Source of the DNA: a virus
Length of the DNA stretch: 62,057 nucleotides
Reading direction: 5' to 3' (one strand)
IMG/VR virus record: IMGVR_UViG_3300011113_000163
Span: 1 to 62,057 of that record
Positions 28,314 to 43,348 of this stretch are shown piece by piece (positions within the stretch are counted from its first letter, which is position 1; the number at the start of each line of letters is the position of its first letter). The position numbers and the translations under genes were made by a program. The notes beneath the pieces are model-generated. The model had not been told where the DNA came from and ran no database searches. It saw only the letters and a list, made by a program, of their open reading frames with translations.

Positions 28314-28319
28314 TAGTTT

Positions 28320-28949
28320 ATGAGCAATAAGTTACAAAATTTAAAAGCTACCAAGGAATTGTTAGCTGGAACGCATAGTACTCAAACACGTAAGTCATTT
28401 GGGTATGAAAATAAATCTGATAGCAAACGTGCTATTGGAGATGTTTGGATAGAAAAAGATCCAAAGACGGGCATTGAATATAAAATAGAACAGAAAGACG
28501 GCTTTCGTACTAAAACACCTTTAAACAGTATTTTAAAACAAATTCGTCAAATATTATCTGTTCCGGAAAAATGTCCATGCTGCAATAAAAAAATGCGAGA
28601 TGAAGAAAAGGCATTAAACTTTAAAATGTATTTCAAACGTAAAAAATGTTTTGAATGTGTTATTAAAGAAGAAACTGCAATACGAATGCAAGGTAAAGAA
28701 GCGTGGGAAGAATATTCGCGTAACATAATGTTAGCCAATGCGGAAGCATGGTTGGCAGATGCTGATAAAGAAGTTGAAATATTACGTGAATCGTTAAAAG
28801 TTCAGTTTATTCAAAATGCCGAAGGTGGATTAGAAGAATGGGATCAAACCGCATTTTTAGAAAAATTTGATACAGATTATCAATCGTTAAAAAACAATAT
28901 AATAACAAATTTAAAAGGTGAATATGGCAACACCAAGGAAAGTAACTAA
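28320..28949 (+). CDS. Zinc-ribbon protein of unknown function
   Basis: A 209-residue protein. A four-cysteine zinc-binding site is visible: C-P-C-C near residue 83 and C-F-E-C about 25 residues later. A basic N-terminal region contains THSTQTRKSFGY. The C-terminal half is a long acidic helix rich in Glu and Trp (EAWLADADKEVEILRESL). I considered a small terminase or a late transcription factor, both of which act near gp17 or late promoters, but no specific motif supports either. It overlaps the next gene by 26 bases and starts six bases after the previous stop with no clear Shine-Dalgarno. Confidence 0.65.
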   Translation: MSNKLQNLKATKELLAGTHSTQTRKSFGYENKSDSKRAIGDVWIEKDPKTGIEYKIEQKDGFRTKTPLNSILKQIRQILSVPEKCPCCNKKMRDEEKALNFKMYFKRKKCFECVIKEETAIRMQGKEAWEEYSRNIMLANAEAWLADADKEVEILRESLKVQFIQNAEGGLEEWDQTAFLEKFDTDYQSLKNNIITNLKGEYGNTKESN

Positions 28950-29199
28950 GGCAGCTGAAAAGTTAGAAAAACATAGCGCTGAGATGCAAGAAGTCGCAGC
29001 AAAATGGGCAAAGGCTATTGGTGATGAAAAACCAAAATTGTTTGATAAGCTTAAAAAGATGACGGCTGAAAAACGTAAGTTAGAACAAGAACTTAATACA
29101 GCGTTGTTAGAATTAGATAAAGATACTGAATTGCAAATTGACGAAGTACGTCGTTTAATCCGTAACATAATACGTGAAGAAATTAAAAAATTAAAGTAA
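28924..29199 (+). CDS. Small coiled-coil protein
   Basis: A 91-residue, strongly charged, almost fully helical protein. Heptad-like Leu and Ile run through KLFDKLKKMTAEKRKLEQEL, and the end is a LIRNIIREEIKKLK amphipathic helix like those of other small proteins here. I chose the ATG at 28924, preceded by AAAAGGTGA. A GTG two codons earlier is possible. The start lies inside the previous gene (26-base overlap), and the stop overlaps the next start (TAATG). The function is unknown. A scaffold or adaptor role fits the composition. Confidence 0.65.
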   Translation: MATPRKVTKAAEKLEKHSAEMQEVAAKWAKAIGDEKPKLFDKLKKMTAEKRKLEQELNTALLELDKDTELQIDEVRRLIRNIIREEIKKLK

Positions 29200-30506
29200 T
29201 GGCAAAAGTTAAATTAACAAGTATAATGACAGAAGTTTTATGGGAACGTTGTTTATTAAATCAACGTTCTATACAATTAGAACAGTCATTAACTAAAGAA
29301 GAAAAGATACACGGTATTTTTAAAGAATATGTATCTTATGTAAAAAACGTATTAAATACGGAACAGCTGACTTCTTTTAAAAATTTCTTTAATCCTACGT
29401 TAACAGAAGACCTTAGTGATGATGATATGGCTGAACTAATAGCTCAAGCAGCACGTGAGTTAGCTAATAAATTACCGGATGCTAAATACTTAACTGACCC
29501 AGAAAAGATACATATCGACGCTTTAGAAAAAGGTGATGTCGAACAAGGCATAGAGATAGACGGACAAGAAAGTAGTGAGGATGTACAGACAGAGTCATAT
29601 CGTACTAAGAAACGAATACTTACTGAAGCTGGCGTATTAATGACAATACTAGCTTTACCAGCTATAGGAAAATTAATTGCGAATGTCATTGATTGGGTTA
29701 AGCGCAATCTTACATTTCCGTCTACCGAGTCAATAAAAGAAGGTGAAATTATAGATATTTTAACTTTAATACATGCATATGCAAAGTCTAACAATAAAAT
29801 ACCGACAAAACAAATTGTTGCAGATTTAGCTAAAAAAACTACGTTTGATAAATTAGACAAATTGATTTCATTCATTAATAAAAAAGCTAAAACAGATTAC
29901 AAATCGCCAAATATAAAAACTCCAATATTTGACGAATACGAACTTTCATACTCCGATCCTGAAGCTGCATTAATGAAAAATATTGACATGGCATTCGACA
30001 GAATAAATGATGCAGTTACGGCTGATGCAGAAAAGAATAAGGGTCATAAAGTACAATTTTCACCCAAAGGCTCAAAGGTACAGCCGGCTGATGATCATAT
30101 GATACATATATTAAATAGTATGACTTATTCATCACCTGTTGCTAAGTCATTAGCTAACGCTAGTCATACGTTACATGAGTGGATTTTAAAAACTGTAGGT
30201 ACAATAATGACGCCTATATTCGCTGTGCGTTACGGACTTTTCAGTAAAGCTGGATGGAAAAAGGCTTGGGATAAATCACATCAATGGGCAAATGTAATGT
30301 ATATTACTGCGATGGGGGCATATTTAGGATGGCATGGAATTAAAGCTTTATTGACAGACTCTGATATATTAGGATTTATTAAAGGTATGTTTGAGTCAGT
30401 TGAAAAATTTGTCGAAGCTTCTAAAGATATAATTAAAACCGGAGATCTATCAGTTGCCGCCGTTGAAGAATTCCTTGCAGTTTCAGGCGCTTTACAAGAA
30501 GATTAA
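29199..30506 (+). CDS. Membrane-segment protein with acidic N-terminal domain
   Basis: A 435-residue protein without a recognised family. Residues 1-140 are helical and acidic. An ILTE-AGV site (E143-A144) of the (L/I)xE type lies directly before a hydrophobic segment (about 144-167, GVLMTILALPAIGKLIANVI). A second hydrophobic helix spans about 362-385 (VMYITAMGAYLGWHGIKALL). Between them is a Lys/Asp-rich helical domain. A virion protein stored in the head and placed in the host membrane during DNA entry would explain the membrane segments, the cut site and the head-gene context. This is inference. A lysis function is an alternative because the spanin-like pair follows at once. Confidence 0.6.
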   Translation: MAKVKLTSIMTEVLWERCLLNQRSIQLEQSLTKEEKIHGIFKEYVSYVKNVLNTEQLTSFKNFFNPTLTEDLSDDDMAELIAQAARELANKLPDAKYLTDPEKIHIDALEKGDVEQGIEIDGQESSEDVQTESYRTKKRILTEAGVLMTILALPAIGKLIANVIDWVKRNLTFPSTESIKEGEIIDILTLIHAYAKSNNKIPTKQIVADLAKKTTFDKLDKLISFINKKAKTDYKSPNIKTPIFDEYELSYSDPEAALMKNIDMAFDRINDAVTADAEKNKGHKVQFSPKGSKVQPADDHMIHILNSMTYSSPVAKSLANASHTLHEWILKTVGTIMTPIFAVRYGLFSKAGWKKAWDKSHQWANVMYITAMGAYLGWHGIKALLTDSDILGFIKGMFESVEKFVEASKDIIKTGDLSVAAVEEFLAVSGALQED

Positions 30507-30507
30507 T

Positions 30508-30870
30508 ATGCAAAAGTATTTAAAATATTGGTTATATGGGTTATCTGCATTAGTTATTATTTTAATAACGGCATTGGTAATTAGTTTATCAAATAGACCG
30601 CAAGTACCTAATAATATTCGAGACTATAAACTACAACGGACAATTGATAGTTTAAATACAGTTATACAAAACAATGCAATAGAACGTAATAAACTTGGTT
30701 TAGAGATTGATTCTTTAAATAAGTCAATCGCACAAGTAGAAGTTAGTATTGCAAAAAAACAAAAAGAAATACAAACATTACGGACAGAACATGAAGAAAC
30801 AGTTAATCGTGTTAATGGCTTTACTAATAACGACATTAACAGCTATTTCACAACGAGATATAGCGAATAA
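30508..30870 (+). CDS. Inner-membrane spanin-like protein (Rz-like)
   Basis: A 120-residue protein with one N-terminal membrane anchor (residues about 6-27, LYGLSALVIILITALVISL). A periplasmic coiled coil follows (TIDSLNTVIQ and LEIDSLNKSIAQ heptads) and a short polar end (NDINSYFTTRYSE). This layout is that of Rz/i-spanin proteins, which join inner and outer membranes at the end of lysis. I start it at 30508, one base after the previous stop, where the hydrophobic anchor begins at once. The last 80 bases overlap the next gene in the +1 frame, the arrangement typical of Rz/Rz1 pairs. No holin or endolysin is visible nearby, so the lysis role is inferred from architecture. Confidence 0.6.
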   Translation: MQKYLKYWLYGLSALVIILITALVISLSNRPQVPNNIRDYKLQRTIDSLNTVIQNNAIERNKLGLEIDSLNKSIAQVEVSIAKKQKEIQTLRTEHEETVNRVNGFTNNDINSYFTTRYSE

Positions 30871-31216
30871 AGATAGCTTAATTTGTTTACCAACTCCTAC
30901 ATTTAAAAAGATTATTTTAGATCTAGAATCGGGCGATTTTGCTAAAAAAGAATTAAAACTTTCGTACGAAATTAATACGGATCTTAATAAACAACTGAGT
31001 TACAAGGATGGTATTATACTACGATATCAGCAACGAGAAGCTACGTATAAAAGTGATAGCATTGCATATGGAAAAACATTACAAGCTAAAGATAGTCAAA
31101 TTGAAATAGCTGTTAAAGAAGCAAGAAAATATCGTAGACAACGTAATGGCGTTATTGTAGGTGGGTCTGCGATCATAATTGCAATTCCTACATTAATTCT
31201 TGTTTTTACGTTATAA
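30791..31216 (+). CDS. Second spanin-like protein, overlapping the first in +1 frame
   Basis: A 141-residue protein. It has a signal-peptide-like start (MKKQLIVLMALLITTLTAIS), a conserved-looking LICLPTPTFKKIILDLESGD segment, a coiled region, a basic KEARKYRRQR patch and a C-terminal membrane helix (residues about 119-141, ending TLILVFTL). Proteins of this design follow i-spanin-like genes in phages of Bacteroidota. A signal peptide plus a terminal membrane helix recalls unimolecular spanins, but there is no lipobox cysteine at the expected site. The ATG at 30791 is chosen because it begins the signal sequence. The 80-base overlap with the upstream gene supports a linked function. Confidence 0.6.
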   Translation: MKKQLIVLMALLITTLTAISQRDIANKDSLICLPTPTFKKIILDLESGDFAKKELKLSYEINTDLNKQLSYKDGIILRYQQREATYKSDSIAYGKTLQAKDSQIEIAVKEARKYRRQRNGVIVGGSAIIIAIPTLILVFTL

Positions 31217-31217
31217 A

Positions 31218-31226
31218 TTCTTTATA
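31218..31226 (+). promoter_or_regulatory. Possible degenerate late element before terminase
   Basis: TTCTTTATATTAAAC matches the late element at seven of nine core positions and ends ten bases before the terminase ATG. It may be chance in AT-rich DNA. Confidence 0.2.
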
Positions 31227-31236
31227 TTAAACAGTT

Positions 31237-32802
31237 ATGTCAAAATCATTAAAAGAAATTATAGCAGAAGAGTATAAAAAGTGTGCAGCTGATCCTGTAC
31301 ATTTTATGCGTAAATACTGCATAATTCAACATCCTACAAAAGGAAAGATGTATTTTAATTTATATCCTTTCCAAGAAGATACTTTACACGACCTACGTGA
31401 TAATAGATATAACATTATTCTTAAGTCACGACAGTTAGGTATTTCTACTTTAACTGCTGGATACGCCCTTTGGGCAATGTTATTTAAAAACGATTACAAT
31501 GTGTTAGTTATTGCTACTACTCAAGACGTTGCTAAAAACTTAGTAACAAAAGTAAGAGTAATGCATGACAATTTACCGGCTTGGTTAAAGGGTAAATCAA
31601 TTGAAGATAATAAATTATCCTTAAGATTTAAAAACGGATCTCAAATCAAAGCTGTTTCTAGTGCAGGTACATCAGGTCGTTCTGAAGCATTGTCATTGTT
31701 AGTAATCGACGAAGCTGCATTTATTAAAGGCATTGATGAAATATGGACATCAGCTCAGCAAACATTGGCAACTGGTGGAGGTGCTATCATATTATCAACA
31801 CCTAACGGTACCGGTAATTTATTTCATAAAATATGGGTAGATGCAGAGGCGGGTGGACAGTTCAATCCAATTAAGTTGCACTGGACAGTACATCCAGATC
31901 GTGATGAAACATGGAGAGAAGAACAAACGAGATTGCTAGGAGATAAAGAAGCAGCACAAGAATGTGATTGTGACTTTATATCATCCGGACATACAGTAGT
32001 TGACGGTCCTGTTATTCAATGGTATGAGCAGACATATGTAAAAGATCCTATCGAAAAACGAGGATTTGATAGTAATTATTGGATATGGGACTATCCGGAT
32101 TATACTAAAAGTTATGTAGTAGTTGCTGACGTTGCTCGAGGCGATGGTGCAGATTATTCCGCATTTCATGTGTTAGAAATTGAAACTATGACACAAGTGG
32201 CAGAGTATCGCGGAAAAATAGGAACTACAGAATACGGTAATATGCTTGTATCTGTTGCTACTGATTATAACAATGCATTGCTTGTAATTGAAAATGCAAA
32301 TATAGGCTGGGCTGTTATACAAATAGCTATTGACCGTAACTATGAAAATTTATATTACTCATATCGCCAAGATGCGTATGTAGATGAAGATGTACATTTA
32401 TCTAAAGGATATGATTTAAAATCTAAATCAGATAAAGTTCCTGGATTTTCAACTACGTCAAAGACAAGACCTCTAATGATTTCTAAATTAGAAACTTATT
32501 TTAGAGAGAAAGGTCCTATTGTAAAAAGTAGAAGATTAACTGATGAATTATATGTATTTATCTGGAACGGTAGTAGGGCTGAAGCACAACGTGGTTATAA
32601 TGATGATTTGGTAATGTCATTTGCAATTGCATTATGGGTTAGAGATACAGCATTACGTTTACGCCAACAAGGAATAGATTTATCTAGAAAATCTTTAGGT
32701 CATTTTGGTAAAGTTAATCCTAGTATTTATTCATCTAAAAATTCATCTAATGGATCATGGGACTGGAACGGAGATAGTAACGGTCTTAAATGGTTATTAT
32801 GA
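31237..32802 (+). CDS. 17: Terminase large subunit gp17
   Basis: The DNA-packaging motor, an ATPase plus headful nuclease that docks on the portal. Of its 521 residues (T4: 610), the N-terminal ATPase has a Walker A variant K63-SRQLGIST, as in T4 gp17 (SRQLGKTT), and Walker B LLVID158E159. The C-terminal RNase H-like nuclease has D298 (VVVADVARGDG) and the late acidic pair D456-D457 (YNDDLVMSFA). The end is Ser/Asn/Gly-rich. A small terminase (gp16) is not recognisable upstream. The gene is followed by a late element and the portal gene 22 bases later. In T4, gp18 and gp19 lie between 17 and 20. Here they have moved elsewhere. Confidence 0.95.
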   Translation: MSKSLKEIIAEEYKKCAADPVHFMRKYCIIQHPTKGKMYFNLYPFQEDTLHDLRDNRYNIILKSRQLGISTLTAGYALWAMLFKNDYNVLVIATTQDVAKNLVTKVRVMHDNLPAWLKGKSIEDNKLSLRFKNGSQIKAVSSAGTSGRSEALSLLVIDEAAFIKGIDEIWTSAQQTLATGGGAIILSTPNGTGNLFHKIWVDAEAGGQFNPIKLHWTVHPDRDETWREEQTRLLGDKEAAQECDCDFISSGHTVVDGPVIQWYEQTYVKDPIEKRGFDSNYWIWDYPDYTKSYVVVADVARGDGADYSAFHVLEIETMTQVAEYRGKIGTTEYGNMLVSVATDYNNALLVIENANIGWAVIQIAIDRNYENLYYSYRQDAYVDEDVHLSKGYDLKSKSDKVPGFSTTSKTRPLMISKLETYFREKGPIVKSRRLTDELYVFIWNGSRAEAQRGYNDDLVMSFAIALWVRDTALRLRQQGIDLSRKSLGHFGKVNPSIYSSKNSSNGSWDWNGDSNGLKWLL

Positions 32803-32810
32803 TATTTATA
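32802..32810 (+). promoter_or_regulatory. Late element copy
   Basis: TGATATTTATATAAAAAC, beginning on the last base of the terminase stop codon and ending 14 bases before the portal ATG. Confidence 0.6.
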
Positions 32811-32824
32811 TAAAAACATAAAGT

Positions 32825-34699
32825 ATGGCAGACACTTCATTATCGAATCGATTACGACGTTTATTTTCAACGAACGTAGTTGTAAGGCGAATAGCTAAAA
32901 ATAGATTAAAAGTAATTGATACTAACAGACTCCAATCATCTGGAGCTTTATCAAGTAATAGATATATAGACCGATTTGCAGGATTACAACGTGGTCAATC
33001 ATATGGTACATATAATCAATCGTATACGTTTCATACATCTAAATTAGAATTATTTTCTGACTATGAGACAATGGATATGGATCCAATCCTATCATCAGCT
33101 TTAGATATTTATGCAGATGAGTCTACAGTAAAAGATGCTGATGGAGATACTTTAACTATTCGTACTCCTAACAATGAAGTATATAAAGTATTACGTAATT
33201 TATTTTACGATATTCTTAACATAGATTATAATTTATGGCCATGGATTCGTAACGCATGTAAATACGGAGATTTCTTTTTATATTTAGATATTGAAGATGA
33301 ATTAGGTATTATTAACGTAGTACCACTTTCAGCATATGAAGTACGTCGTGAAGAAGGATATGATCCGGAGAATCCATATGCATATAGATTTGTATTTGAG
33401 GGTAGTCATACAATGTATGCAGCCGGACGTACTAAGACAGAGAGGGCTCCATTAGAAAATTATCAAGTAGCACACTTCCGATTATTATCCGATACAAACT
33501 TCCTTCCATATGGTAAGTCAATGATTGAGCCAGCACGTAAGATTTTCAAACAATTGACATTAATGGAAGATGCAATGTTAATTCACCGTATTATGCGTGC
33601 ACCTGAAAGACGTATTTTTAAAATAGATGTAGGTAACTTGCCACCAGCAGAAGTAGATGCGCATATCGATAGTATTGTTCAAAAGATGAAAAAGATTCCG
33701 TATATAGATGAATCTACGGGCCAATATAATCTTAAATTTAATATGCAAAACATGTTAGAAGATTATTTCTTACCAGTACGTGGAGGAGAATCTGGAACAT
33801 CGATTGATACATTAAATGGTTTAAGTAATGACGGACAAATTGAAGATATTGAATACTTAAGAAATAAAATGCACGCCGCATTGAAAATTCCAAAAGCATT
33901 TTTAGGATACGATGAAGGAGTTGAAGGTAAAGCAACGTTAGCAGCAGAAGATGTACGTTTTGCTAGAACAATAGAACGTCTACAAAAAATATTTGTATCA
34001 GAGTTAACAAAGATTGCAATTGTACATTTATATGCACAAGGATTTGAAGATGAGGATTTAACTAACTTTAGTTTATCATTAACTAATCCGTCATTAATTT
34101 ACGAAAAGCAAAAGTTAGAAACTTTGGCTACTAAAGTAGATTTGGCAGGTAATCTTAAAGAAAGCGGAATGTTTTCTGAAAAATGGATCTATGAAAATAT
34201 TTACGGAATGACCCAACAAGAATGGGAAACAGAACAAGAGCAGGTTATTGAAGATCTTAAACAAGACTTCCGTAAAGAACAAATTAAATCAGAAGGTAAT
34301 GACCCTGTTAAAACTAACATGAGTTTTGGTACACCGCATGACATTGCAAGTATGCATGTCGCAAATAAAATGGGCGATTTACCTATCGAGCAGGAACATG
34401 TAGCAGGACCAGGACGTCCAAAAGATCCTAGTACATGGGGCAAACATTCTAGTCCACATGGCAGAGATCCGTTAGGAGTTAAAGAATTATCTAAAACATT
34501 CAGTGCAGATTCTTCTCCGCTACAACATAAATTTAAAGGCGGCTCGCCGTTAAGTACAGAAAATATTGCATCTAAAAATTTAATAGACACGCTAAAATCT
34601 ACTTTTAAGACGCCTAAAGTTCTTAAACAAACATTAACTGAAGACGTAAAAGATCAAGACGCTGGCACTATGTTAGATGAACGACAATTATTAGATTAA
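32825..34699 (+). CDS. 20: Portal protein gp20
   Basis: T4 gp20-type portal of 624 residues (T4: 524), the dodecameric ring through which DNA enters and leaves the head. Characteristic stretches are YETMDMDPILSSALDIYADE near residue 80, WPWIRNACKYGDFFLYLDI near 138, AEVDAHIDSIVQKMKKIPY near 280 and YLRNKMHAALKIPKAFLGY near 345. The C-terminal 120 residues extend past the T4 core with a Pro/His/Gly-rich segment. An LTE-D site (E606) of prohead-protease type lies near the end, so the tail may be trimmed. A late element precedes it, and an early initiator for head assembly fits the following core genes. Confidence 0.94.
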   Translation: MADTSLSNRLRRLFSTNVVVRRIAKNRLKVIDTNRLQSSGALSSNRYIDRFAGLQRGQSYGTYNQSYTFHTSKLELFSDYETMDMDPILSSALDIYADESTVKDADGDTLTIRTPNNEVYKVLRNLFYDILNIDYNLWPWIRNACKYGDFFLYLDIEDELGIINVVPLSAYEVRREEGYDPENPYAYRFVFEGSHTMYAAGRTKTERAPLENYQVAHFRLLSDTNFLPYGKSMIEPARKIFKQLTLMEDAMLIHRIMRAPERRIFKIDVGNLPPAEVDAHIDSIVQKMKKIPYIDESTGQYNLKFNMQNMLEDYFLPVRGGESGTSIDTLNGLSNDGQIEDIEYLRNKMHAALKIPKAFLGYDEGVEGKATLAAEDVRFARTIERLQKIFVSELTKIAIVHLYAQGFEDEDLTNFSLSLTNPSLIYEKQKLETLATKVDLAGNLKESGMFSEKWIYENIYGMTQQEWETEQEQVIEDLKQDFRKEQIKSEGNDPVKTNMSFGTPHDIASMHVANKMGDLPIEQEHVAGPGRPKDPSTWGKHSSPHGRDPLGVKELSKTFSADSSPLQHKFKGGSPLSTENIASKNLIDTLKSTFKTPKVLKQTLTEDVKDQDAGTMLDERQLLD

Positions 34700-34717
34700 T
34701 AGTTTGTCAGTAGACAC

Positions 34718-34726
34718 ATATTTATT
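34718..34726 (+). promoter_or_regulatory. Late element copy
   Basis: ACATATTTATTAAAAATA, ending 30 bases before the ATG of the 278-residue protein at the head of the prohead-core gene run. Confidence 0.6.
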
Positions 34727-34756
34727 AAAAATATACGTACTAACAGGACGCATTTA

Positions 34757-35593
34757 ATGAAACGAATTAAACATTCAAAAGTAAAAAATACCGGTTTGAT
34801 ATTCGAACTATTGGTAAGACAAGTAGCATCGGATACAATGAACAACCGTGATTCTAAAGCATTACGTATCATTAAAAGAAATTTCAAATTAAATTCTCTT
34901 TTAGGACAAGAACTTAAGTTATATAGATCATTGCACGAAGAAAAATTTAATAGTGCAAAAGCAGATTTATTTGTATCTGCAGTTATAACCGCACGTAAAG
35001 CTATTAATGAAACGGCACTGAAACGTGAAAAGTATAACTTGATCAAAGAAATTCGTTCTACATACGATATTGAAGAATTTTTTAAGGCACGAGTTAGTAA
35101 TTATAAACTACATGCTGCAGCATATAAATTGTTTGAATATGCAGAAGCGGATGATCCAAAAGAATATGTAGTTAACAAATTTACTATTATAGAACACGTT
35201 GCTAGCCCAGAACATAAAAATAATGTAAACTCAGTATTAGTGGCTGAGAATAAAGATTTGCAAATTTTAGCTTCTAAAATTCTTATTGATAAATTTAATG
35301 AAAAATATTCAACGTTAACAGGTTCGCAAAAAAGTATGTTACGTGAATATATTAACAACGTAAGTAATTCAGTTGGACTTAAAAAATATATTTCTAAAGA
35401 AATTAAATCTTTACAGGAACAACTTGGTAAACTTAAAACATCTGTACCTAGTAAAGTAGTACGTATTAAATTAACAGAAGTATCTAATTTATTATCTCAA
35501 TTAAATAAAAAGCATGTAATTGAAGATAAGGATGTTGTTACTATGTTAAAATACTATGAATTAGTAGATGAATTAAACAAGATAAAAGGATAA
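34757..35593 (+). CDS. Conserved head-region protein between portal and protease
   Basis: A 278-residue helical protein of a family often seen between gp20 and gp21 in marine T4-like phages (opening MKRIKHSKVKNTGLIFELLV, then RQVASDTMN). The N-terminal 60 residues are basic, and the rest is predicted helical with a coiled segment (KSLQEQLGKLK). The role is unknown. In T4 the same interval holds the small core proteins gp67 and gp68, so an assembly-core role is possible. It is followed one base later by the next start. GGACGC lies before the ATG, and no strong Shine-Dalgarno is seen. Confidence 0.75.
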   Translation: MKRIKHSKVKNTGLIFELLVRQVASDTMNNRDSKALRIIKRNFKLNSLLGQELKLYRSLHEEKFNSAKADLFVSAVITARKAINETALKREKYNLIKEIRSTYDIEEFFKARVSNYKLHAAAYKLFEYAEADDPKEYVVNKFTIIEHVASPEHKNNVNSVLVAENKDLQILASKILIDKFNEKYSTLTGSQKSMLREYINNVSNSVGLKKYISKEIKSLQEQLGKLKTSVPSKVVRIKLTEVSNLLSQLNKKHVIEDKDVVTMLKYYELVDELNKIKG

Positions 35594-35594
35594 T

Positions 35595-35903
35595 ATGCCG
35601 GAACAAGGACCATATACATATACAGCGACTGCTGCTAGCCAATTTGAAAGATTAGGTCATCCAGGAAAATATATTACATCATATCAATATACATCCGGTC
35701 AAGTTGATTTTACCGGATCGAATTACGGGTATGGTGCAGTTATGGTAGTATCTGCGGGTGGAGCAACTGCTAGTTTATCTAACGGTGGAACATTAAATTT
35801 AGGCGATCTTAACGTAAAAGATGTATATGATTTTTCTATTAGTAAAATAACAGGCGGAACGGCAGCAACAGTTTATTTATTTAAACGTCAAGGAGTGGCA
35901 TGA
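35595..35903 (+). CDS. Small beta-rich head protein
   Basis: A 102-residue beta-rich protein with no helix-forming segment. It contains Gly/Ser/Thr/Tyr-rich strands (SGQVDFTGSNYGYGAVMVV, TASLSNGGTLNLGDL). The size and composition resemble small capsid decoration or stabilising proteins, but I cannot assign a family. AAAGGATA lies just before the start. The stop overlaps the next start as ATGA, so it is coupled to the 346-residue core protein. Confidence 0.65.
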   Translation: MPEQGPYTYTATAASQFERLGHPGKYITSYQYTSGQVDFTGSNYGYGAVMVVSAGGATASLSNGGTLNLGDLNVKDVYDFSISKITGGTAATVYLFKRQGVA

Positions 35904-36940
35904 GTTTTTTAAAAGACATAGAAAGACATTTTCGATTGTTAAACGAGGCTAAAGTAGATCGTATATCTGATAAAGAGGCGGAAGAAGATTTTGAAGATTT
36001 GGACGATAAAGACGTTGATAATGACGGCGATACCGACAAGTCAGATAAGTATTTACATAAACGTTTAGGTACTATTGCTAAAGTAGATGAAAATCATTTA
36101 GGCGTTGAAGAACCATTTTATATTGAAATAGCAGTTCGTGATGCACGTAAGGCCGTTGAATTAATAAAAGACGATCCTTTACTAGTAAAGGCATTACGTA
36201 ATAAAACTATTATGCCATATGGAAGTAACGTGTTCGCAACAGATGATCAAGAAATTATTCAGTCATTATCGGATAAATTATTAGATAGTGGCATTGAATT
36301 AATTAGTCATCAAGGATTGGATGAAATGTCAACTACTGCCGGAGTACCTGGATATCAAACTCCATATGCATTTGGTAAGGCAGATGATGATACTTTAAAA
36401 CAAGGTGGAATGATGCCAGTTAAAAAAACTAATAAAATTTTCAAACCAATATGGAATGAAAATGTGTCGGCATATAAAAAAATGATGTCTGAGATGTACG
36501 GTGTAGAATCTATCAATGAAGCTGCTAATCCACAAATGGATAAGTTAGTTACGGCATTTGTTGATAAGATAGCAGAAAGAAATGGATATCCAACGTCAGA
36601 AGCTATTATAGCAATATTTGATGCTCTTAAGCGTAAAGGATTTTTACATAAGAGTGTTGAATATAAATCACCGTCAGGATATAGTATTGAAGAAGCAGTA
36701 TCATATCGAGACTATAAAAAAGACCCAACTTCAACTCCAGCACAAAAAGTTAATGCTGGTATAATGGAAGTTAATCGCATGTTAAGCGAAATGGAAAAAA
36801 TTGTACATAACAATCTACGTTTAAAGACGGAAATGGGAGTACAATCAAATCATTTTTGGAAATCGACAAGTTCACGGTTTTCAAAAATTAATGAACGTAT
36901 TGTTAGAATCTCAAATAAATTAAAGGAATTATCACAATGA
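35900..36940 (+). CDS. Head-core protein with EF-hand-like loop and cleavage sites
   Basis: A 346-residue protein. Residues 1-16 (MSFLKDIERHFRLLNE, then A) have the layout of a T4 capsid-targeting peptide with an (L/I)xE cut site. A second matching site, SINE-AAN, lies at E207. Residues 36-52 hold an acidic DKDVDNDGDTDKSDKYL loop with Asp at 38, 40, 42 and 44, like a calcium-binding EF-hand or dockerin loop. A small alpha/beta domain follows (IEIAVRDARKAVELIKDD), and then helices. It starts in an ATGA overlap and ends in one. A prohead core or packaged internal protein is inferred. Confidence 0.65.
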   Translation: MSFLKDIERHFRLLNEAKVDRISDKEAEEDFEDLDDKDVDNDGDTDKSDKYLHKRLGTIAKVDENHLGVEEPFYIEIAVRDARKAVELIKDDPLLVKALRNKTIMPYGSNVFATDDQEIIQSLSDKLLDSGIELISHQGLDEMSTTAGVPGYQTPYAFGKADDDTLKQGGMMPVKKTNKIFKPIWNENVSAYKKMMSEMYGVESINEAANPQMDKLVTAFVDKIAERNGYPTSEAIIAIFDALKRKGFLHKSVEYKSPSGYSIEEAVSYRDYKKDPTSTPAQKVNAGIMEVNRMLSEMEKIVHNNLRLKTEMGVQSNHFWKSTSSRFSKINERIVRISNKLKELSQ

Positions 36941-37743
36941 GCTATTTTATTGATTGGCGCGACTATGTAAGACAACCGCGCATTAAAAGTTTAATTGAAA
37001 GCAAAGGTATAGAAGCTGCTCGCCAAGAATACATTCGCGAATCAAACAAAGCAATGTGGGATGACCCATTCGTTATTAACGAAAGTCTATATAGTTCTGC
37101 AGATCCAACTACAGCCGCGGCCGGTGCCGGTGGAGATAGTGCTGCTATCGTAGGGCATGTAGCTGAAGTTAGTAGATTTTCATGGGCTAGCACAGTGACA
37201 AATGACGTAACCGGATCTAATGGAGATGGTTTACATGGATATTATTTTGAAGTTGCTGCATATAACGGTAGTGTCGATTTTTCATTTAACCACGTAAATT
37301 CTACTAAGAGATTTAGATTTTATTTTGTATCATCTTCTACTACTGGATTTACTGCTACAAATACAACTGGTATTGCTGGTATAGTAACAGCTTCGTATAC
37401 TAGAACCACTGAAACTACTCCGGTAACTGGAAGCTTATTAAGTAAATTATATACAGCAATATTAGGACAAAGTGCTACTGCGGTAGTTGCAGGATTTACA
37501 AATACAATTGCTCCTAGTACATTATTTGCGCCTACAATGTCTGCAGGTAGTAGTTCATTGACGTTAGTACACGTTAATAAAGGCGGAGTTCCTAATATTT
37601 CTAGTACAGTGCCAACAGTATCAGCATCTGTAAGTGTAGTTACTAACGGATTAGATAGATATTGGGGAACATCAGCCGCGATGCCTGGACCAACGTTTGA
37701 CGGATTTGTATCGCCATATACAACATTGGCACGTAGAGGATAA
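36937..37743 (+). CDS. Head protein with helical propeptide-like N terminus
   Basis: A 268-residue protein of two unlike halves. Residues 1-49 are helical and charged and end in a VINE-SL site (E49-S50) of the gp21 cleavage type. Residues 50-268 are Ser/Thr/Gly/Ala-rich beta sequence, compatible with a small capsid-bound or decoration domain. The hinge position of the site suggests that a propeptide is removed during maturation. It starts within an ATGA overlap, and the protease gene follows at once. Confidence 0.6.
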   Translation: MSYFIDWRDYVRQPRIKSLIESKGIEAARQEYIRESNKAMWDDPFVINESLYSSADPTTAAAGAGGDSAAIVGHVAEVSRFSWASTVTNDVTGSNGDGLHGYYFEVAAYNGSVDFSFNHVNSTKRFRFYFVSSSTTGFTATNTTGIAGIVTASYTRTTETTPVTGSLLSKLYTAILGQSATAVVAGFTNTIAPSTLFAPTMSAGSSSLTLVHVNKGGVPNISSTVPTVSASVSVVTNGLDRYWGTSAAMPGPTFDGFVSPYTTLARRG

Positions 37744-37747
37744 TAAA

Positions 37748-38353
37748 ATGTCTAAACAATTAATTGTCGATTATAGTTTATTTGAAGTATCGCCTCAGGC
37801 TATTAACGAATCATTAGCTAACAATAATGGTAAATTAGTCGTTACAGGCGTTCTTCAAAGAGCAGATGCACGTAACCAAAACGGTCGTGTATATCCAATG
37901 GAAACATTAATGCGTGAAGCAAAAAAATATCAATCAACATATATTGCTGAGCGCAGGGCGTTAGGAGAATTAGACCATCCAGATAGCTCAGTGGTTAATT
38001 TAAATAACGTATCTCATAACATTTTATCTATGGGATGGAACGGCAATGATTTAGTAGGTACTGTTGAAGTATTACCGACACCGTCTGGTAACATTTTAAA
38101 AGCGTTGTTTCAATCGGGAATTAAATTAGGTATTAGTTCACGTGGTTTAGGTTCTGTAAAAGAAGTTATGCGCGAAGGAAATACTGCAATGGAAGTTCAA
38201 CCCGACTTTGAGTTGATTGCATTTGATTTTGTAAGTAATCCTTCGACCCATGGGGCATTCCTTTCACCTGTTAACGAATCTGTTAATAAAAATACATCTA
38301 ACAAATACGGAAATATCGAACGTATTATTTCCGATATAATTATGGAGTTCTAA
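37748..38353 (+). CDS. 21: Prohead maturation protease gp21
   Basis: T4 gp21-type serine protease (201 residues, T4: 212), which cuts scaffold, capsid and core proteins after (L/I)xE during head maturation. The active-site segments are GELDH77P and GIS130S131RG, matching the His and Ser of the herpesvirus-like assemblin fold. A third conserved segment is FELIAFDFVSNPSTHGAF. I start it at 37748 (ATG after AGGATAATAAA). An upstream extension lacks protease character. AINE-S (E21) and PVNE-S (E177) flank the protease core and are likely self-cleavage sites, as in T4. Confidence 0.93.
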   Translation: MSKQLIVDYSLFEVSPQAINESLANNNGKLVVTGVLQRADARNQNGRVYPMETLMREAKKYQSTYIAERRALGELDHPDSSVVNLNNVSHNILSMGWNGNDLVGTVEVLPTPSGNILKALFQSGIKLGISSRGLGSVKEVMREGNTAMEVQPDFELIAFDFVSNPSTHGAFLSPVNESVNKNTSNKYGNIERIISDIIMEF

Positions 38354-38354
38354 C

Positions 38355-38633
38355 ATGGCAGCACCAAATAGAGGTTTAGTAGATTTAGCTCATTCATCTG
38401 CATATGGTCCAAGTAATCCAGGCCAATTAGGCACTGGAACTATTTTAGGAACTAACATTTCTCCTATAGCAAATGCACAATTAGGTAATCCAAAGAACGG
38501 TAAAAAGTTTTTTAATAGCTTATTTGACTCATCACATGCTAGTTTATACGGGCCATTCAATGTACCGGGCAAAAGAGGTACAGGTATAATGCCAGATGTA
38601 TTTGGAAACATTCCTAGAGAGATTAATATTTAA
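38355..38633 (+). CDS. Small Gly/Asn/Pro-rich head-region protein
   Basis: A 92-residue protein with low helix content. An SAYGPSNPGQLGTGTI-type segment is echoed later by ASLYGPFNVPGKRGTGIM, so the protein looks like an internal duplication (units about 45 residues apart). I recognise no family. It starts one base after the protease stop. A structural peptide of the head or neck is the likely class. Confidence 0.6.
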   Translation: MAAPNRGLVDLAHSSAYGPSNPGQLGTGTILGTNISPIANAQLGNPKNGKKFFNSLFDSSHASLYGPFNVPGKRGTGIMPDVFGNIPREINI

Positions 38634-38641
38634 AGGATAGT

Positions 38642-38968
38642 ATGTCAAACTTAAAATCAAGATATGCTCAATTGTTTGCAGGTAAACTTAAATCAAACGA
38701 TAAAAAATTAATATCGGAAGGGTTTGAAGATTTGCAAGGAGTAGCTGATCAGTTATCAGAACTTTATGATCAAGTATATGCTTTTGAGGAAGCTTTGATA
38801 AACATGTTAGATGATCTTGAAGTAGCAGAGCCAGAAAATACTATGTATAAACAATTAGGAGCACAGGCGAGTAGATATACTAAAGCAGTGATAACTAATA
38901 TGGATGGTGTTTCTAAAATAATAGACAAATTAGAAAAAATAGGATCTATGCAAAATGAAGAAATTTGA
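38642..38968 (+). CDS. Small prohead-core-like protein A
   Basis: A 108-residue acidic helical protein with a long coiled-coil segment (DLQGVADQLSELYDQVYAFE). A KLISE-GF site (E26-G27) sits near the N terminus. AAAGGATAG is a good Shine-Dalgarno. It overlaps the next gene by 14 bases. Position between gp21 and gp22, composition and the cut site fit a core protein like T4 gp67/gp68, though no sequence homology is claimed. Confidence 0.6.
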   Translation: MSNLKSRYAQLFAGKLKSNDKKLISEGFEDLQGVADQLSELYDQVYAFEEALINMLDDLEVAEPENTMYKQLGAQASRYTKAVITNMDGVSKIIDKLEKIGSMQNEEI

Positions 38969-39359
38969 ACAACAATTACTAAAAAACATACTTAATGAAA
39001 ATGTAGGTATGGATGATGAAAAGAAAGTTACTAGCGAAGAAAAGCGTAATTTCCTACGTGCCGTATCAGAATACCACAAGTTAGGTGAAATGATTTATCG
39101 TGCACAAGGCTTAAAAGAAGTAGCCGAAACATTACAGAACATTGTCACTACTGCTGAAAACTTAACAATACAAGAGTCAGAACATTGGTTTGATAATGTT
39201 ACAGTATCACGCCATATGAAGCAAATGAATGAAGCTTATAAAGTATTTGAAAAAACTGCACAGGAAATGTCAGGAATGCAACAACGTTTAGAAGCTGCAT
39301 ATGAAGACATGGGTATGGTATTAAACAAGTATTATAAAGTTAACGAAGCCTTAAAATAA
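38955..39359 (+). CDS. Small prohead-core-like protein B
   Basis: A 134-residue charged, helical protein. The N-terminal 15 residues (MKKFEQQLLKNILNE, then N) again have the targeting-peptide layout ending in LNE. The rest is helix with coiled-coil character (VFEKTAQEMSGMQQRLEAAY). It overlaps the preceding core-like gene by 14 bases and probably acts with it. No specific family is recognised. Confidence 0.6.
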   Translation: MKKFEQQLLKNILNENVGMDDEKKVTSEEKRNFLRAVSEYHKLGEMIYRAQGLKEVAETLQNIVTTAENLTIQESEHWFDNVTVSRHMKQMNEAYKVFEKTAQEMSGMQQRLEAAYEDMGMVLNKYYKVNEALK

Positions 39360-39384
39360 TTTGTAATTTTAAATAAAAGTTATT

Positions 39385-39393
39385 ATATTAATA
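39385..39393 (+). promoter_or_regulatory. One-mismatch late element before bS21
   Basis: ATATTAATACAAAATA differs from the element at one core base and lies 14 bases before the bS21 ATG, the usual distance. A weak TTGTAA-17-TATATT host-type promoter (39361-39389) overlaps it. Confidence 0.4.
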
Positions 39394-39407
39394 CAAAATA
39401 AAAAGTT

Positions 39408-39662
39408 ATGAGTAAAAAACAAAAACATTTTGAAAGCATTATTCCTGGATCAATGACCGGAGTACGTGTTCCAAAGTTACCTTTCGACGATGGTAAAAGA
39501 GATCTTTCATTTGCGTTACGTAAATGGAAGAAAATGGTTAAAGATTCTAAGATTTTAATTGAGTTAAAGGATCGAACCGAATACATTAAACCATCCTTTA
39601 AGAAAAAGGAGCAACGTAAACGTAGTGCTTATTTACAACGAAAGCAATCAGAAAACATGTAG
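39408..39662 (+). CDS. rpsU: Phage-encoded ribosomal protein bS21
   Basis: An 84-residue homologue of small-subunit protein bS21, which sits on the 30S platform by the 3' end of 16S rRNA, where anti-Shine-Dalgarno pairing occurs. The family pattern is complete: VRVPK, then FALRKWKK (E. coli ALRRFKR), SKILIELKDRTEYIKPS, and a basic tail KKKEQRKRSAYLQRK. DRTEYIKPS and SAYLQ look closest to Bacteroidota S21 as I remember it (ARTAFIKPS, AAYIQ). Y75 aligns with the Bacteroidota tyrosine implicated in occluding the anti-Shine-Dalgarno. An N-terminal extension of about 18 residues is unusual. No Shine-Dalgarno is seen before its start. A terminator follows, then scaffold and capsid genes. Confidence 0.88.
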   Translation: MSKKQKHFESIIPGSMTGVRVPKLPFDDGKRDLSFALRKWKKMVKDSKILIELKDRTEYIKPSFKKKEQRKRSAYLQRKQSENM

Positions 39663-39678
39663 TTGTAAAAAAATTAAA

Positions 39679-39708
39679 AAAAAAGATGTCAGAGACGGCA
39701 TCTTTTTT
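39679..39708 (+). terminator. Rho-independent terminator after bS21
   Basis: A 12-bp stem, AAAAAAGATGTC / GGCATCTTTTTT, with a six-base loop AGAGAC and one T-G wobble. A-tract and T-tract flanks make it able to work in either direction. Confidence 0.85.
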
Positions 39709-39831
39709 ACTATCGTGTATATATATAATTGTCTTGATACTATATCTCAATATATAGTCACTCTAAATTATTTTTATATCTTTATTAAGATTCCAATAAT
39801 CTTATTTCCAAATTAAATACGAGGAAAAGCA
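39709..39831 (+). promoter_or_regulatory. Leader region of scaffold-capsid genes
   Basis: This stretch between the terminator and gp22 must hold the promoter for gp22 and gp23 if the terminator is efficient. A one-mismatch late element, ATCTTTATTAAGAT, lies at 39778-39786, 45 bases before the ATG. A GAGG Shine-Dalgarno lies at 39821-39824. No convincing host-type -35/-10 pair with proper spacing is seen. Confidence 0.45.
39821..39824 (+). promoter_or_regulatory. Shine-Dalgarno of gp22
   Basis: GAGG seven bases before the ATG (context TACGAGGAAAAGCAATG). It is among the clearer sites in the window and one of two in the gene pair after bS21. Confidence 0.7.
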
Positions 39832-40731
39832 ATGAACAAATTGTTAAAAGAGGCTATTGCTGATGCTAAAGCTGTACGCGAAACTGCACTAGCAAATGCC
39901 AAAATTGCATTAGAAGAAGCTTTCACTCCAAGACTCCAAAGCATGTTATCTGCTCGCTTATCTGAAGCTGATGATGAGATGTACGACGAAGAAGAAGAAA
40001 TTGAAGCACCGGCTCCAGAAGTAACTGAAGAAGGTGAAGAAAATGACACTGACGGTACACCTGATCCAGGCCCAGCTATTGAAGAAGAAGATGAAATGGG
40101 AGAGGAAGAATTGGATTTAGAAGCGATCATTCGTGAACTTGAAGGTGACGAAGAAGTAACCGAAGAGGACCTAGATTCTTCAGACATCGGAACTGGTGAT
40201 AACAAAGTAGATGCATATTCATCTACAACAGAAGATCCAGGAGAAGGTGAAATTTCAATCGACGAAATCATTAATGCTTTACGCGAAGCAGAAGGTGAAG
40301 ACGAAGAAATGAAAGAAGAAGAAGAAAAGGAAATGAAAGAAGAAGAAGAAAAAGAAACTAACGAAGAAGCTGAAAAAGAATTAGAAGAAGCTATTCGTGT
40401 TATCAAATTCTTGAAAAACAAAATTAACGAAGTAAATCTTCTTAATGCAAAACTATTATTTTCTAACAAGTTGTTTAGAAACTATGAATTAAATGAATCA
40501 CAAAAAATGAAAGTTATTGAAAACTTTGATCGTGCAAATAATTTGCGTGAAGTTAAGTTAGTATTTAGCACATTGTGTGAATCTTTAACTGTTTCTAAAA
40601 CAGCAAAAAAACAAAACATTAAAGAAGGCTATGCTTCTAAACCAACACGTAGTACTGCTCCAAAGAAAGAAATTCTTTCTGAAGGTAATACTTTAGCTGA
40701 ACGTTGGAAGAAATTGGCTAATTTAAAGTAA
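39832..40731 (+). CDS. 22: Prohead scaffold protein gp22
   Basis: The major scaffold of the prohead (299 residues, T4: 269), which is degraded by gp21 before DNA packaging. The N terminus, MNKLLKEAIADAKAVRETAL followed by ANAKIALEE, is conserved among T4-like gp22 proteins. The middle (residues about 45-190) is extremely acidic with long Glu/Asp runs, and the C-terminal part is helical. Many (L/I)xE sites are present, for example KINE-V, ELNE-S and ILSE-G. It directly precedes the capsid gene, as in T4. Confidence 0.9.
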   Translation: MNKLLKEAIADAKAVRETALANAKIALEEAFTPRLQSMLSARLSEADDEMYDEEEEIEAPAPEVTEEGEENDTDGTPDPGPAIEEEDEMGEEELDLEAIIRELEGDEEVTEEDLDSSDIGTGDNKVDAYSSTTEDPGEGEISIDEIINALREAEGEDEEMKEEEEKEMKEEEEKETNEEAEKELEEAIRVIKFLKNKINEVNLLNAKLLFSNKLFRNYELNESQKMKVIENFDRANNLREVKLVFSTLCESLTVSKTAKKQNIKEGYASKPTRSTAPKKEILSEGNTLAERWKKLANLK

Positions 40732-40740
40732 TTAACAAAC

Positions 40741-40746
40741 AAGAGG
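40741..40746 (+). promoter_or_regulatory. Shine-Dalgarno of gp23
   Basis: AAGAGG seven bases before the capsid ATG, followed by an A-run. It is a clear site for the most abundant phage protein. Confidence 0.7.
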
Positions 40747-40753
40747 AAAAAAA

Positions 40754-42472
40754 ATGAATTTAAATTCTTTGTTACCTCATGATGCTCAAGCAAATCAAAA
40801 TGCAGTATCTATCCAACTTGAAAAGAAGTGGGCACGTACTGGTCTTTTGGAAGGCTTAAGCAATGAGGTTGAGCGCAAGGGCATGGCTGTTCTTTTAGAG
40901 AACCAAGCTAAGCAACTTGTAACTGAAGCTAACTCTACTGGTACTGATTCAAATGCTGAACAGTGGGCTGGTGTAGCTTTACCATTAGTACGTCGTATCT
41001 TTGCTGAAATTGCTGCAAAAGATTTCGTTAGTGTACAACCAATGAACCTACCATCGGGTCTTGTATTCTATTTGGATTTCAAATATGGTACTGCTCAAGG
41101 TATTCAACGCGGTGGTTCTGCATCTGGTAACGACTTTTTAACTGGTCAAGGACGTAACTCTCAAGCTGACTCTGTATTCGGTATCACCGATTCAGATCGT
41201 GGTGGTTCTGCTCCTAGCGAAGGTCTTTACGGTGCTGGACGTTTTGGTTATTCTGTTAACAACGTAACTGCATCATTAGGTCAATTAGGTGCTACTGCAG
41301 CAACTCAAGCACAAACTGGTTCTGTAGCAGTTGGTACTGGTGTATTCACTAGTGGTACTGGTTTAACACAAACACAGTTTGATTGGTTTACTAACTTCAA
41401 TGCAGAATTTTCTGCTTCTGTAGTTGCTAACGGTCTATCTGGATTTGTAGTATTATCTGTTCCGACAGCATCACTTTCAGGCTTTGATTCAAAAGGTATT
41501 CGCGGATTTAACGTTCAGGCTACTAACATCACTGGATTCTATCCTGAATTTACCCGTTTATCACCGACTAAGAGTCATATCCAATTCTTAGTAGACCCTG
41601 CAGTTGACTTTAATGCTCCAGTAGTAGTTTATCATAAGCAACCGCTTGATAACAGCCGTGGTGATTTTGAAGATCCAACAGCTATTGGAAACAATACAAA
41701 CTCAAGCACAAACTTAGCTATTCCAGAAATTAACTTAGAACTTCGTTCTGAAGCAATCGTTGCTAAGACACGTAAGTTAAAAGCTATTTGGTCTCCTGAG
41801 TTTGCTCAAGACTTAAATGCTTACCACTCAATTGATGCTGAAGCAGAATTGACTAGCATGTTGTCTGAGTATATTTCACAAGAAATTGATCTTGAGATTT
41901 TAGATATGTTGATCCAAAACGCTCAAACAACTGAGTATTGGTCAGCTCAAATCGGTTATGTATATGATTCTGCTACTAGCGCATTTGTAAATGCCGCTAC
42001 TGCAGGTCAAGCATATAACCAAGGTACTTGGTTCCAAACTTTAGGAACTAAAATCCAAAAAGTATCTAACAAAATTCATCAGTTAACTATGCGCGGTGGA
42101 GCGAACTTCTTAGTATGTTCTCCAACTGTAGCAACTATCCTTGAGTCTATCCCAGGATATGCTGCTGATACTGACGGTAACAAGATGAACTTTGCAATGG
42201 GTGTACAAAAAGTAGGTGCTATTAACAACCGTTATCAAGTATATAAGAATCCTTATATGACTGAAAACACTATCCTTTTAGGATACCGTGGATCTCAGTT
42301 CCTTGAAACTGGTGCTGTTTATGCTCCATATGTTCCATTGATGATGACTCCACTTGTTTATGACCCAACTAACTTCACTCCACGTAAGGGTGTAATGACT
42401 CGTTACGCTAAGAAGATGGTTCGTCCTGAATTCTATGGTAAGATCTGGGTTGGTGGATTAAATCAACTTTAA
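40754..42472 (+). CDS. 23: Major capsid protein gp23
   Basis: HK97-fold major capsid protein (572 residues, T4: 521). The most diagnostic block is LVRRIFAEIAAKDFVSVQPM then NLPSGLVFYLDFKYG (residues about 76-115), the same arrangement as in T4 and cyanophage gp23. The central part (150-300) is variable. The C-terminal half has conserved LELRSEAIVAKTRKLKAIW and FTPRKGVMTRYAKKMVRP segments. Processing by gp21 probably occurs after LVTE58, before ANSTGTDSNAEQW, close to the T4 cut after residue 65. Codon use here is smoother than in the neighbours (more GGT, CGT, AAC), as expected for a very highly expressed gene. No second vertex gene (gp24) is seen. Confidence 0.96.
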   Translation: MNLNSLLPHDAQANQNAVSIQLEKKWARTGLLEGLSNEVERKGMAVLLENQAKQLVTEANSTGTDSNAEQWAGVALPLVRRIFAEIAAKDFVSVQPMNLPSGLVFYLDFKYGTAQGIQRGGSASGNDFLTGQGRNSQADSVFGITDSDRGGSAPSEGLYGAGRFGYSVNNVTASLGQLGATAATQAQTGSVAVGTGVFTSGTGLTQTQFDWFTNFNAEFSASVVANGLSGFVVLSVPTASLSGFDSKGIRGFNVQATNITGFYPEFTRLSPTKSHIQFLVDPAVDFNAPVVVYHKQPLDNSRGDFEDPTAIGNNTNSSTNLAIPEINLELRSEAIVAKTRKLKAIWSPEFAQDLNAYHSIDAEAELTSMLSEYISQEIDLEILDMLIQNAQTTEYWSAQIGYVYDSATSAFVNAATAGQAYNQGTWFQTLGTKIQKVSNKIHQLTMRGGANFLVCSPTVATILESIPGYAADTDGNKMNFAMGVQKVGAINNRYQVYKNPYMTENTILLGYRGSQFLETGAVYAPYVPLMMTPLVYDPTNFTPRKGVMTRYAKKMVRPEFYGKIWVGGLNQL

Positions 42473-42510
42473 TTGTTAATTAATAATTAATAATTGTTTA
42501 GTTTGTAAAG

Positions 42511-42532
42511 AGGCGGCTTCGGTCGCCTTTTT
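42511..42532 (+). terminator. Rho-independent terminator after capsid gene
   Basis: A 7-bp stem AGGCGGC / GTCGCCT (one wobble) closed by a stable TTCG tetraloop in C(TTCG)G context, followed by five Ts. Confidence 0.9.
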
Positions 42533-42544
42533 ACTTTTCAAAGG

Positions 42545-42553
42545 ATATTTATA
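42545..42553 (+). promoter_or_regulatory. Late element copy
   Basis: GGATATTTATACGAAAGG, directly after the capsid terminator and 15 bases before the PhoH ATG. It restarts transcription. Confidence 0.65.
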
Positions 42554-42568
42554 CGAAAGGTATAAGTT

Positions 42569-43249
42569 ATGGAACAAGCTACTAAGTTATCAAATTTCGA
42601 TAAACGCAAACCGAAGAATCCAATCAAGTTTGCTATTGAATTAAATGAAGAACAAAAACAGGCTAAGGCGTTAATATATGACAATCCAGTTGTATTGTTA
42701 AAAGGCCAGGCTGGTTCGGGTAAAACATTGGCAGCTTGTCAGTGTGCAATAGACATGTTCTTTAAACGCGAAATAGAAAAAATTGTAATTACGAGGCCTA
42801 CAGTATCTAAAGAAGAGATTGGATTCTTGCCAGGAGATCTTAAAGAAAAAATGGATCCATGGTTAGCTCCTATTTATTCTAATTTATATCTTTTATACAA
42901 TCGTGAGAAGATCGATAAAATGGTCGCAAATGGAGAAATTGAAATTGTACCATTTGCGTTTATGCGTGGTAGAACATTTCCTAATACATTTGTTATTGTA
43001 GATGAATGTCAAAATATTACACATGGACAGACTGAAATGATGTTAGGTAGATTGGGCCGAGGTGGTAAAATGGTTTTCTGTGGAGATATTAGTCAAACGG
43101 ACTTAAAAAATAAAAAAGATTCTGGTATTAGCTTCTTTGCACGATTGGAAGAAAATGTAAAAGGTGTTAAAATACATGTTCTTAAGACCAATCATCGCCA
43201 CGAAATTGTTGAGCCAATTCTTAAAATTTACAGTGAATATAGAGACTAA
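42569..43249 (+). CDS. phoH: PhoH-like P-loop NTPase
   Basis: A 226-residue PhoH-family ATPase, common in marine and freshwater phages and related to the N-terminal half of RNA/DNA helicases. Walker A is G46-QAGSGKT. A conserved ITRPTVSKEEIGFLPGD segment follows near residue 72. Walker B is IVD145ECQN, and a sensor-type FCGDISQTDL lies near 170. The physiological role in phage infection is unresolved, and an RNA-related function is the current view for bacterial relatives. It stands alone between the capsid terminator and the second fibre locus, with its own late element. Confidence 0.92.
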   Translation: MEQATKLSNFDKRKPKNPIKFAIELNEEQKQAKALIYDNPVVLLKGQAGSGKTLAACQCAIDMFFKREIEKIVITRPTVSKEEIGFLPGDLKEKMDPWLAPIYSNLYLLYNREKIDKMVANGEIEIVPFAFMRGRTFPNTFVIVDECQNITHGQTEMMLGRLGRGGKMVFCGDISQTDLKNKKDSGISFFARLEENVKGVKIHVLKTNHRHEIVEPILKIYSEYRD

Positions 43250-43348
43250 GTGTACGGTATTAAATTAGATATCATGTAACACTTGTAGATAGCAATAAAC
43301 GAAGTAATTGCTATATAAAAATATTAGAATCTTAACATAGTTACATAC
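43250..43348 (+). other. Gap after PhoH with a stem-loop
   Basis: This intergenic stretch holds an 8-bp inverted repeat, ATAGCAAT (43289-43296) and ATTGCTAT (43307-43314), around a ten-base loop. There is no T-tract, so it is a weak terminator candidate or an mRNA 3' end structure. Confidence 0.35.

Follow-up and report, generated by a model that had tools for sequence, protein, structure and literature searches.

The virus record IMGVR_UViG_3300011113_000163 from IMG/VR, analysed here as a single 62-kb stretch (62,057 nucleotides; the window), encodes a homologue of ribosomal protein bS21 directly before the scaffold (gp22) and major capsid (gp23) genes of a T4-like phage. Across the phage clade to which the window belongs, bS21 proteins with an N-terminal extension co-occur with Shine–Dalgarno (SD) sequences on orthologous capsid and scaffold genes. 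This clade-wide co-occurrence points, short of proof, to a retuning of host ribosomes by the phage bS21. Our tentative reading, which we regard as quite possible although short of probable, is that N-extended phage bS21 causes the ribosomes of Bacteroidota to read late mRNAs led by an SD, above all those for capsid and scaffold. Earlier work on why phages have bS21 looked for a tie between phage S21 and phage ribosome-binding sites, and no clear one emerged (Watson et al. 2020, PMC7550191). In this clade there is such a tie: extended bS21 and SD use arise and vanish jointly, and the genes concerned, for capsid and scaffold, are the same throughout. Were the reading true, a virus would be changing the rule by which its host's ribosome initiates. 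The features on which the argument rests are as follows.

39408..39662, + strand: phage bS21 gene, 84 amino acids; PF01165 over cut-off; alignment to 7jil
Parts of bS21: N-terminal extension, about residues 1–20 (KKQKHFESIIPG); core, about residues 24–79; Y75, the equivalent of Flavobacterium johnsoniae Tyr54
39821..39824, + strand: SD (GAGG) of gp22, from the sequence; duplex −5.9 kcal/mol
39832..40731, + strand: gp22-like scaffold gene, 299 amino acids, acidic; an open reading frame (ORF) directly before gp23, as in T4
40741..40746, + strand: SD (AAGAGG) of gp23, from the sequence; duplex −6.3 kcal/mol
40754..42472, + strand: gp23 major capsid protein, 572 amino acids; PF07068, 268.9 bits

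Extended bS21 and SD use across the clade

We scanned IMG/VR for relatives of gp23, which gave 80 loci, and applied one gene and start caller to all sequences, taking GGAG, GAGG or AGGA as the SD core. The core is found on 51% of window genes, compared with 6% after shuffling; its share elsewhere is 53% in T4, 41% in phage Mel-JY01, 2% in Flavobacterium phage immuto and 1% in F. johnsoniae. Within the T4-like clade, SD cores lead 440 of 877 genes in 59 loci with bS21 versus 7 of 180 in nine loci without it, and they peak at −12 to −10, as expected of a working SD, in the bS21-positive set only. The same division is seen on single orthologues. Among unique leaders, gp23 has an SD in 41/44 bS21-positive relatives and 0/9 bS21-negative ones, and gp22 in 33/36 and 0/9, respectively. 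The GAGG and AAGAGG sites in the window had already been assigned to gp22 and gp23 in an initial annotation made from the sequence alone, and they stand, correctly spaced, at the positions given above; the interval described there stopped at 40760, well short of the end of gp23 at 42472.

SDs are rare on three other orthologues, occurring in 3/48 unique leaders of bS21, 1/24 of portal and 2/17 of terminase. Terminase and portal (window 31237–34699) are steadily SD-less across the SD-rich clade, with capsid and scaffold nearly always SD-led. Genes for proteins of higher copy number seem to be the ones that carry SDs.

To judge from these sequences, the feature that travels with SD use is the N-terminal extension, not bS21 as such. 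In SD-rich members, the extension places 15–30 residues, mostly 20, ahead of the core valine and consists of a basic patch followed by an S/M-I-x-P-G motif (S-I-x-P-G in the window bS21). It is conserved across 42 family members, 39 of which keep Gly14. The initial annotation had noted an extension of 18 residues in the window protein; it is present and conserved in the family, at about 20 residues, close to that figure. Conversely, bS21 proteins without a long extension are found in SD-poor genomes, namely L278 (SD on 1/16 genes), L004 (1/8) and the host-like Bacteroidota-phage type (L172–L198), whose contigs pair an unextended bS21 with SD-free genes and so differ from the window on both counts. 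A search for N-extended bS21 among 395 Bacteroidia genomes gave no hit at E 1e-8.

On the gp23 tree, bS21-negative lineages are nested inside the SD-rich clade at several places, the minimum number of changes being three for bS21 and four for SD-richness. Both independent pairs on well-supported branches are concordant for bS21 and SD.

Phage bS21, residue 54 and the host

The ORF at 39408–39662 matches PF01165 over residues 32–75 (Pfam; 28.6 bits against a cut-off of 27) and carries the PHROG annotation 'ribosomal protein S21'. Among bS21 chains in the PDB, the F. johnsoniae chain of 7jil is its best match (E 5.5e-5; runner-up 0.007). The 7jil alignment is gap-free from the KPS motif to the C terminus and pairs Y75 with F. 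johnsoniae Tyr54, a pairing confirmed by a MAFFT alignment with 53 Bacteroidota bS21 proteins. Position 54 is Tyr in 19 of these and Arg in 34, and is Lys in Escherichia coli and Bacillus subtilis. The initial annotation was therefore right in placing a bS21-like protein directly before gp22 and gp23 and in equating Y75 with the Bacteroidota anti-SD tyrosine. An AlphaFold2 model of the phage protein (mean pLDDT 89) has helices at residues 3–10 (short), 33–47, 49–55 and 62–83, which fall where the bS21 family predicts; a structure search with this model returned no significant match and is hence uninformative. Phage bS21 proteins keep the core signature, with K41 and K45 invariant and Tyr or Phe common at position 54 (31 of the 42 extended proteins).

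In Bacteroidia, the anti-SD is hidden by bS21, bS18 and bS6; Tyr54, reported to be uniquely conserved in this class, forms a stack with A1534 and diverts the 16S 3′ tail; in F. johnsoniae either Y54A or loss of the C-terminal region leads to more SD-dependent translation (PMC9976891). Retention of Tyr54 alone gives no reason to expect more SD use, because these losses raise it and because unextended Tyr54 phage bS21 proteins sit in SD-free genomes. The idea in the initial annotation that SD use near bS21 is special is strengthened for the extended protein, which SD use tracks across the clade, but not for the retained tyrosine, which on its own predicts no extra SD use.

The frequency of Tyr or Phe at position 54 and kinship with immuto together point to a Bacteroidia host, as far as sequence comparison can indicate. 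The best further host evidence is the GroEL encoded by G003, an SD-rich contig of the Tyr54 type (Y-type) with a gp23 79% identical to that of the window. This GroEL is nearest to those of class Bacteroidia (745 bits, 67%), with a tree position that is not well supported; its best PDB match is a reconstructed ancestral Fibrobacteres–Chlorobi–Bacteroidetes chaperonin (702 bits; E. coli, 628), and it is far from the GroELs of immuto and of phages G301 and G302 (517–551 bits). The genomes nearest by GroEL have a Tyr54 bS21 and no SD use (G006, 0/14; G103, 1/11; G084, 1/20). The GroEL gene at L285:2092–3708 of a phage contig resembles that of Bacteroidia closely and those of related phages only remotely, which points to a separate acquisition. 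A secreted-looking protein of G309 gave no match as a host marker. Promoter signatures were dropped as host evidence for the window, as immuto, a known Flavobacterium phage, also lacks a clear signal; clear Bacteroidota promoters were seen in the phages with Arg54 bS21, Mel-JY01, G303 and a contig of the published type, G306.

SD use in some Arg54-type Bacteroidota genomes contrasts with that in Tyr54-type genomes. The residue at bS21 position 54 may predict SD use within Bacteroidota, and Arg54-type members of the phage clade may well infect SD-using Bacteroidota.

A proposed mechanism and its rivals

In the mechanism that we propose, phage bS21 would occupy the place of the host protein on the 30S subunits of Bacteroidota. 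Through its C-terminal helix it would still make a Tyr54-type contact to the 16S 3′ tail, while the extension would alter the hold on that tail or on mRNA, such that SD–anti-SD pairing, normally blocked in these hosts, would become usable for phage mRNAs. Unmodified host ribosomes would translate the bS21 mRNA first, which they should be able to read because it is SD-less; modified ribosomes would then prefer the SD-led mRNAs of high-copy virion proteins, scaffold and capsid first. The sequences establish the gene, its Tyr54 equivalent, the conserved extension and the SDs that co-occur with extended bS21; that the protein enters ribosomes, that it frees the anti-SD and when it does so are what we infer. 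Besides the SD contrasts within the clade, the points in favour are the scarcity of SDs in phages of known Bacteroidia hosts, the aromatic residue at position 54 of most extended proteins, the G003 GroEL, and the extended SD that host rpsU often has in Tyr54-type Bacteroidota and that the phage bS21 leader lacks. A sharper claim makes the protein a translational switch: its extension would release the anti-SD that Bacteroidia ribosomes sequester and provide a private SD-based initiation code for capsid and scaffold, although the host itself makes no use of SDs. We hold this to be possible but doubtful.

Several observations weigh against retuning by the extended protein. Only two well-supported independent changes separate the states on the gp23 tree (up to four over all branches). 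A sign test of the trait pair had only two starred independent pairs, from which no significance can be claimed; the association is consistent yet statistically thin by number of events because only these two pairs rest on well-supported branches. Retention of Tyr54 should favour occlusion of the anti-SD, and Arg54 is found in 10 of the 42 extended proteins. With column 54 left out, moreover, the core of the phage bS21 is no nearer to Tyr54-type than to Arg54-type Bacteroidota bS21 (22.7 versus 25.2 bits). Some Arg54-type Bacteroidota genomes themselves use SDs (G022 (L331), 7/18; G188 (L332), 4/14; G298 (L333), 8/19). A DNA search of window positions 28000–43300 against the 395 Bacteroidia genomes found no clear spacer and no prophage, the best matches being short similarities in the PhoH and major capsid protein regions, and Y-type contigs show no enrichment of Bacteroidota promoters, although immuto does not clearly show it either. 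The bS21 leader is SD-less in 58/61 bS21-positive loci, but this is weak evidence for a switch, since portal and terminase leaders are SD-less as well; the argument that the leader proves a switch is weakened accordingly. The early/late comparison raised in the initial annotation does reveal a late SD bias in bS21-positive contigs (89/172 late versus 69/283 conserved non-late genes). It fits but is not diagnostic, and was dropped as a sign of a bS21 effect, because the Vibrio phage KVP40 has a similar bias (16/23 versus 21/64) without bS21.

The main rival explanation is that SDs follow the host: SD-rich members would infect SD-using bacteria, in a Bacteroidota class or another phylum, and SD-free members Bacteroidia, with bS21 an ordinary replacement that aids translation and Tyr54 ancestral or convergent. 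We take this as a real possibility, albeit one that we doubt. SD use normally tracks the host, T4, KVP40 and HTVC008M being SD-rich and phages of known Bacteroidia hosts SD-poor (immuto, 3/121; phi14:2, 2/56; FCL-2, 1/64; B40-8, 5/52; crAss001, 7/45), and the absence of promoter enrichment from Y-type contigs agrees with it. Host matching is enough to account for the Arg54-type phages G301 and G302, because they carry Bacteroidota promoters and SD-using Arg54-type Bacteroidota exist (for example, 8/19 and 7/18 genes). It is harder to reconcile with the aromatic residue at position 54 in most extended proteins, with the Bacteroidia affinity of the G003 GroEL and with the SD-free state of the sampled Tyr54-type genomes, and it leaves unexplained why the extension, rather than bS21 as such, tracks SDs.

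Two further accounts assign bS21 other roles. In the model that Chen et al. (PMC9723584) published for Bacteroidota phages whose bS21 has Tyr54 and lies near structural genes, plain substitution would keep the anti-SD blocked and favour phage mRNAs by a non-SD route, leaving SDs to help marginally, for example on the few ribosomes without bS21. The Tyr54 retained in the window protein fits this model, as does the preference of F. johnsoniae ribosomes lacking bS21 for strong SDs (PMC9976891). We nevertheless consider it unlikely, because marginal help would not conserve the gp22 and gp23 SDs so strictly, near-invariant as they are in bS21-positive members and absent from bS21-negative relatives; these SDs are also modest (about −6 kcal/mol), far from the very strong ones of rpsU autoregulation. 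A role outside the ribosome, with phage bS21 packaged in the virion or acting as an RNA-binding regulator of head-gene mRNA, could be read from its place among head genes and its basic extension, and Chen et al. (PMC9723584) suggested that bS21 might be packaged. Conservation of the core signature argues against such a role, as does the entry of HTVC008M bS21 into E. coli ribosomes, as reported in PMC9976891 with citation of PMC6375957, and we regard it as very improbable.

Head-gene block, relatives and known systems

The window holds a T4-like structural block comprising terminase, gp20 portal, gp21 protease, bS21, gp22, gp23, PhoH and other genes. Three further features flank the genes discussed above.

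37748..38353, + strand: prohead protease (gp21-like), ahead of bS21 in the conserved head block; PF03420; PHROG head maturation protease
39377..39407, + strand: SD-less bS21 leader (AAGTTATTATATTA ... AAAAAGTT-ATG); duplex −1.0 kcal/mol; no SD core
39679..39708, + strand: terminator-like hairpin between bS21 and gp22; −12.8 kcal/mol, z −5.8, U run at end

The gp22-like ORF had no match in Pfam or PHROG and is therefore named from its position and composition. Given the hairpin, which is absent from the list of a consensus terminator scanner, one transcription unit probably closes with bS21 and another begins at gp22. The motif of the bS21 leader has no other exact copy in the window. An AAGTTAT-like motif often abuts the bS21 start codon, divergent members included (window 39377–39407; leaders L205–L281), and a longer motif upstream of it is not general within the window.

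The nearest cultured relatives by gp23 are Mel-JY01 (59%), immuto (57%) and Rhodothermus phage RM378 (46%). Together with the gp20–gp21–gp22–gp23 block, this kinship identifies the window as a T4-like phage of an immutovirus-related clade. Mel-JY01 has bS21 in the equivalent head block. Although labelled a Microcystis phage (PP395634.1; L163/L323), it falls within the Bacteroidota-phage clade by gp23, and Bacteroidota promoters are over-represented between its genes (8, with 0.5 expected). We set it aside as a sign of a cyanobacterial host, since its promoters and relatives look Bacteroidota; the label may be wrong or derive from a co-cultured Bacteroidota. In G303 (L302–L306), a bS21-free relative, intergenic regions have a repeated element with G+C in common; GCnnGAGT, for instance, occurs in 13 of them against an expected 0.6.

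The presence of bS21 in Bacteroidota phages, Tyr54, the structural-gene neighbourhood and N-terminal extensions are already published (PMC9723584, PMC7162821), and that a phage bS21 keeps the anti-SD tyrosine is not new, having been described for Bacteroidota phages (PMC9723584). The link between N-extended bS21 and SD use within one phage clade looks new; in the literature that we searched, no coupling of the two on orthologous capsid and scaffold genes of a clade was found. Chen et al. (2022, PMC9723584) proposed that Bacteroidota-phage bS21 replaces host bS21 late in infection. The window protein resembles theirs in combining Tyr54, or another aromatic residue, with adjoining structural genes. 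Their gene, however, lies on the strand opposite to the structural genes, whereas the window gene is on the same strand, directly before gp22, and contigs in our set with their host-like bS21 type have SD-free genes and no extension. An extension rich in basic residues is shared with bS21 of huge phages (Al-Shayeb et al. 2020, PMC7162821; Watson et al. 2020, PMC7550191), where extensions were noted but not tied to SDs; in the window clade, the extension tracks SD use. With F. johnsoniae bS21 (McNutt et al. 2023, PMC9976891), the phage protein shares the Tyr54 position and the C-terminal helix at the 16S tail. Host rpsU there has an extended SD, as is often the case in Tyr54-type Bacteroidota hosts, and no N-terminal extension, in contrast to the extended protein and SD-less leader of the phage gene, which is thus not read through an extended SD in the manner of Bacteroidia-type bS21. 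Finally, immuto (Immutovirus) has the same T4-like head-gene order as the window but lacks both SDs and, throughout its genome, bS21, whereas the window has both.

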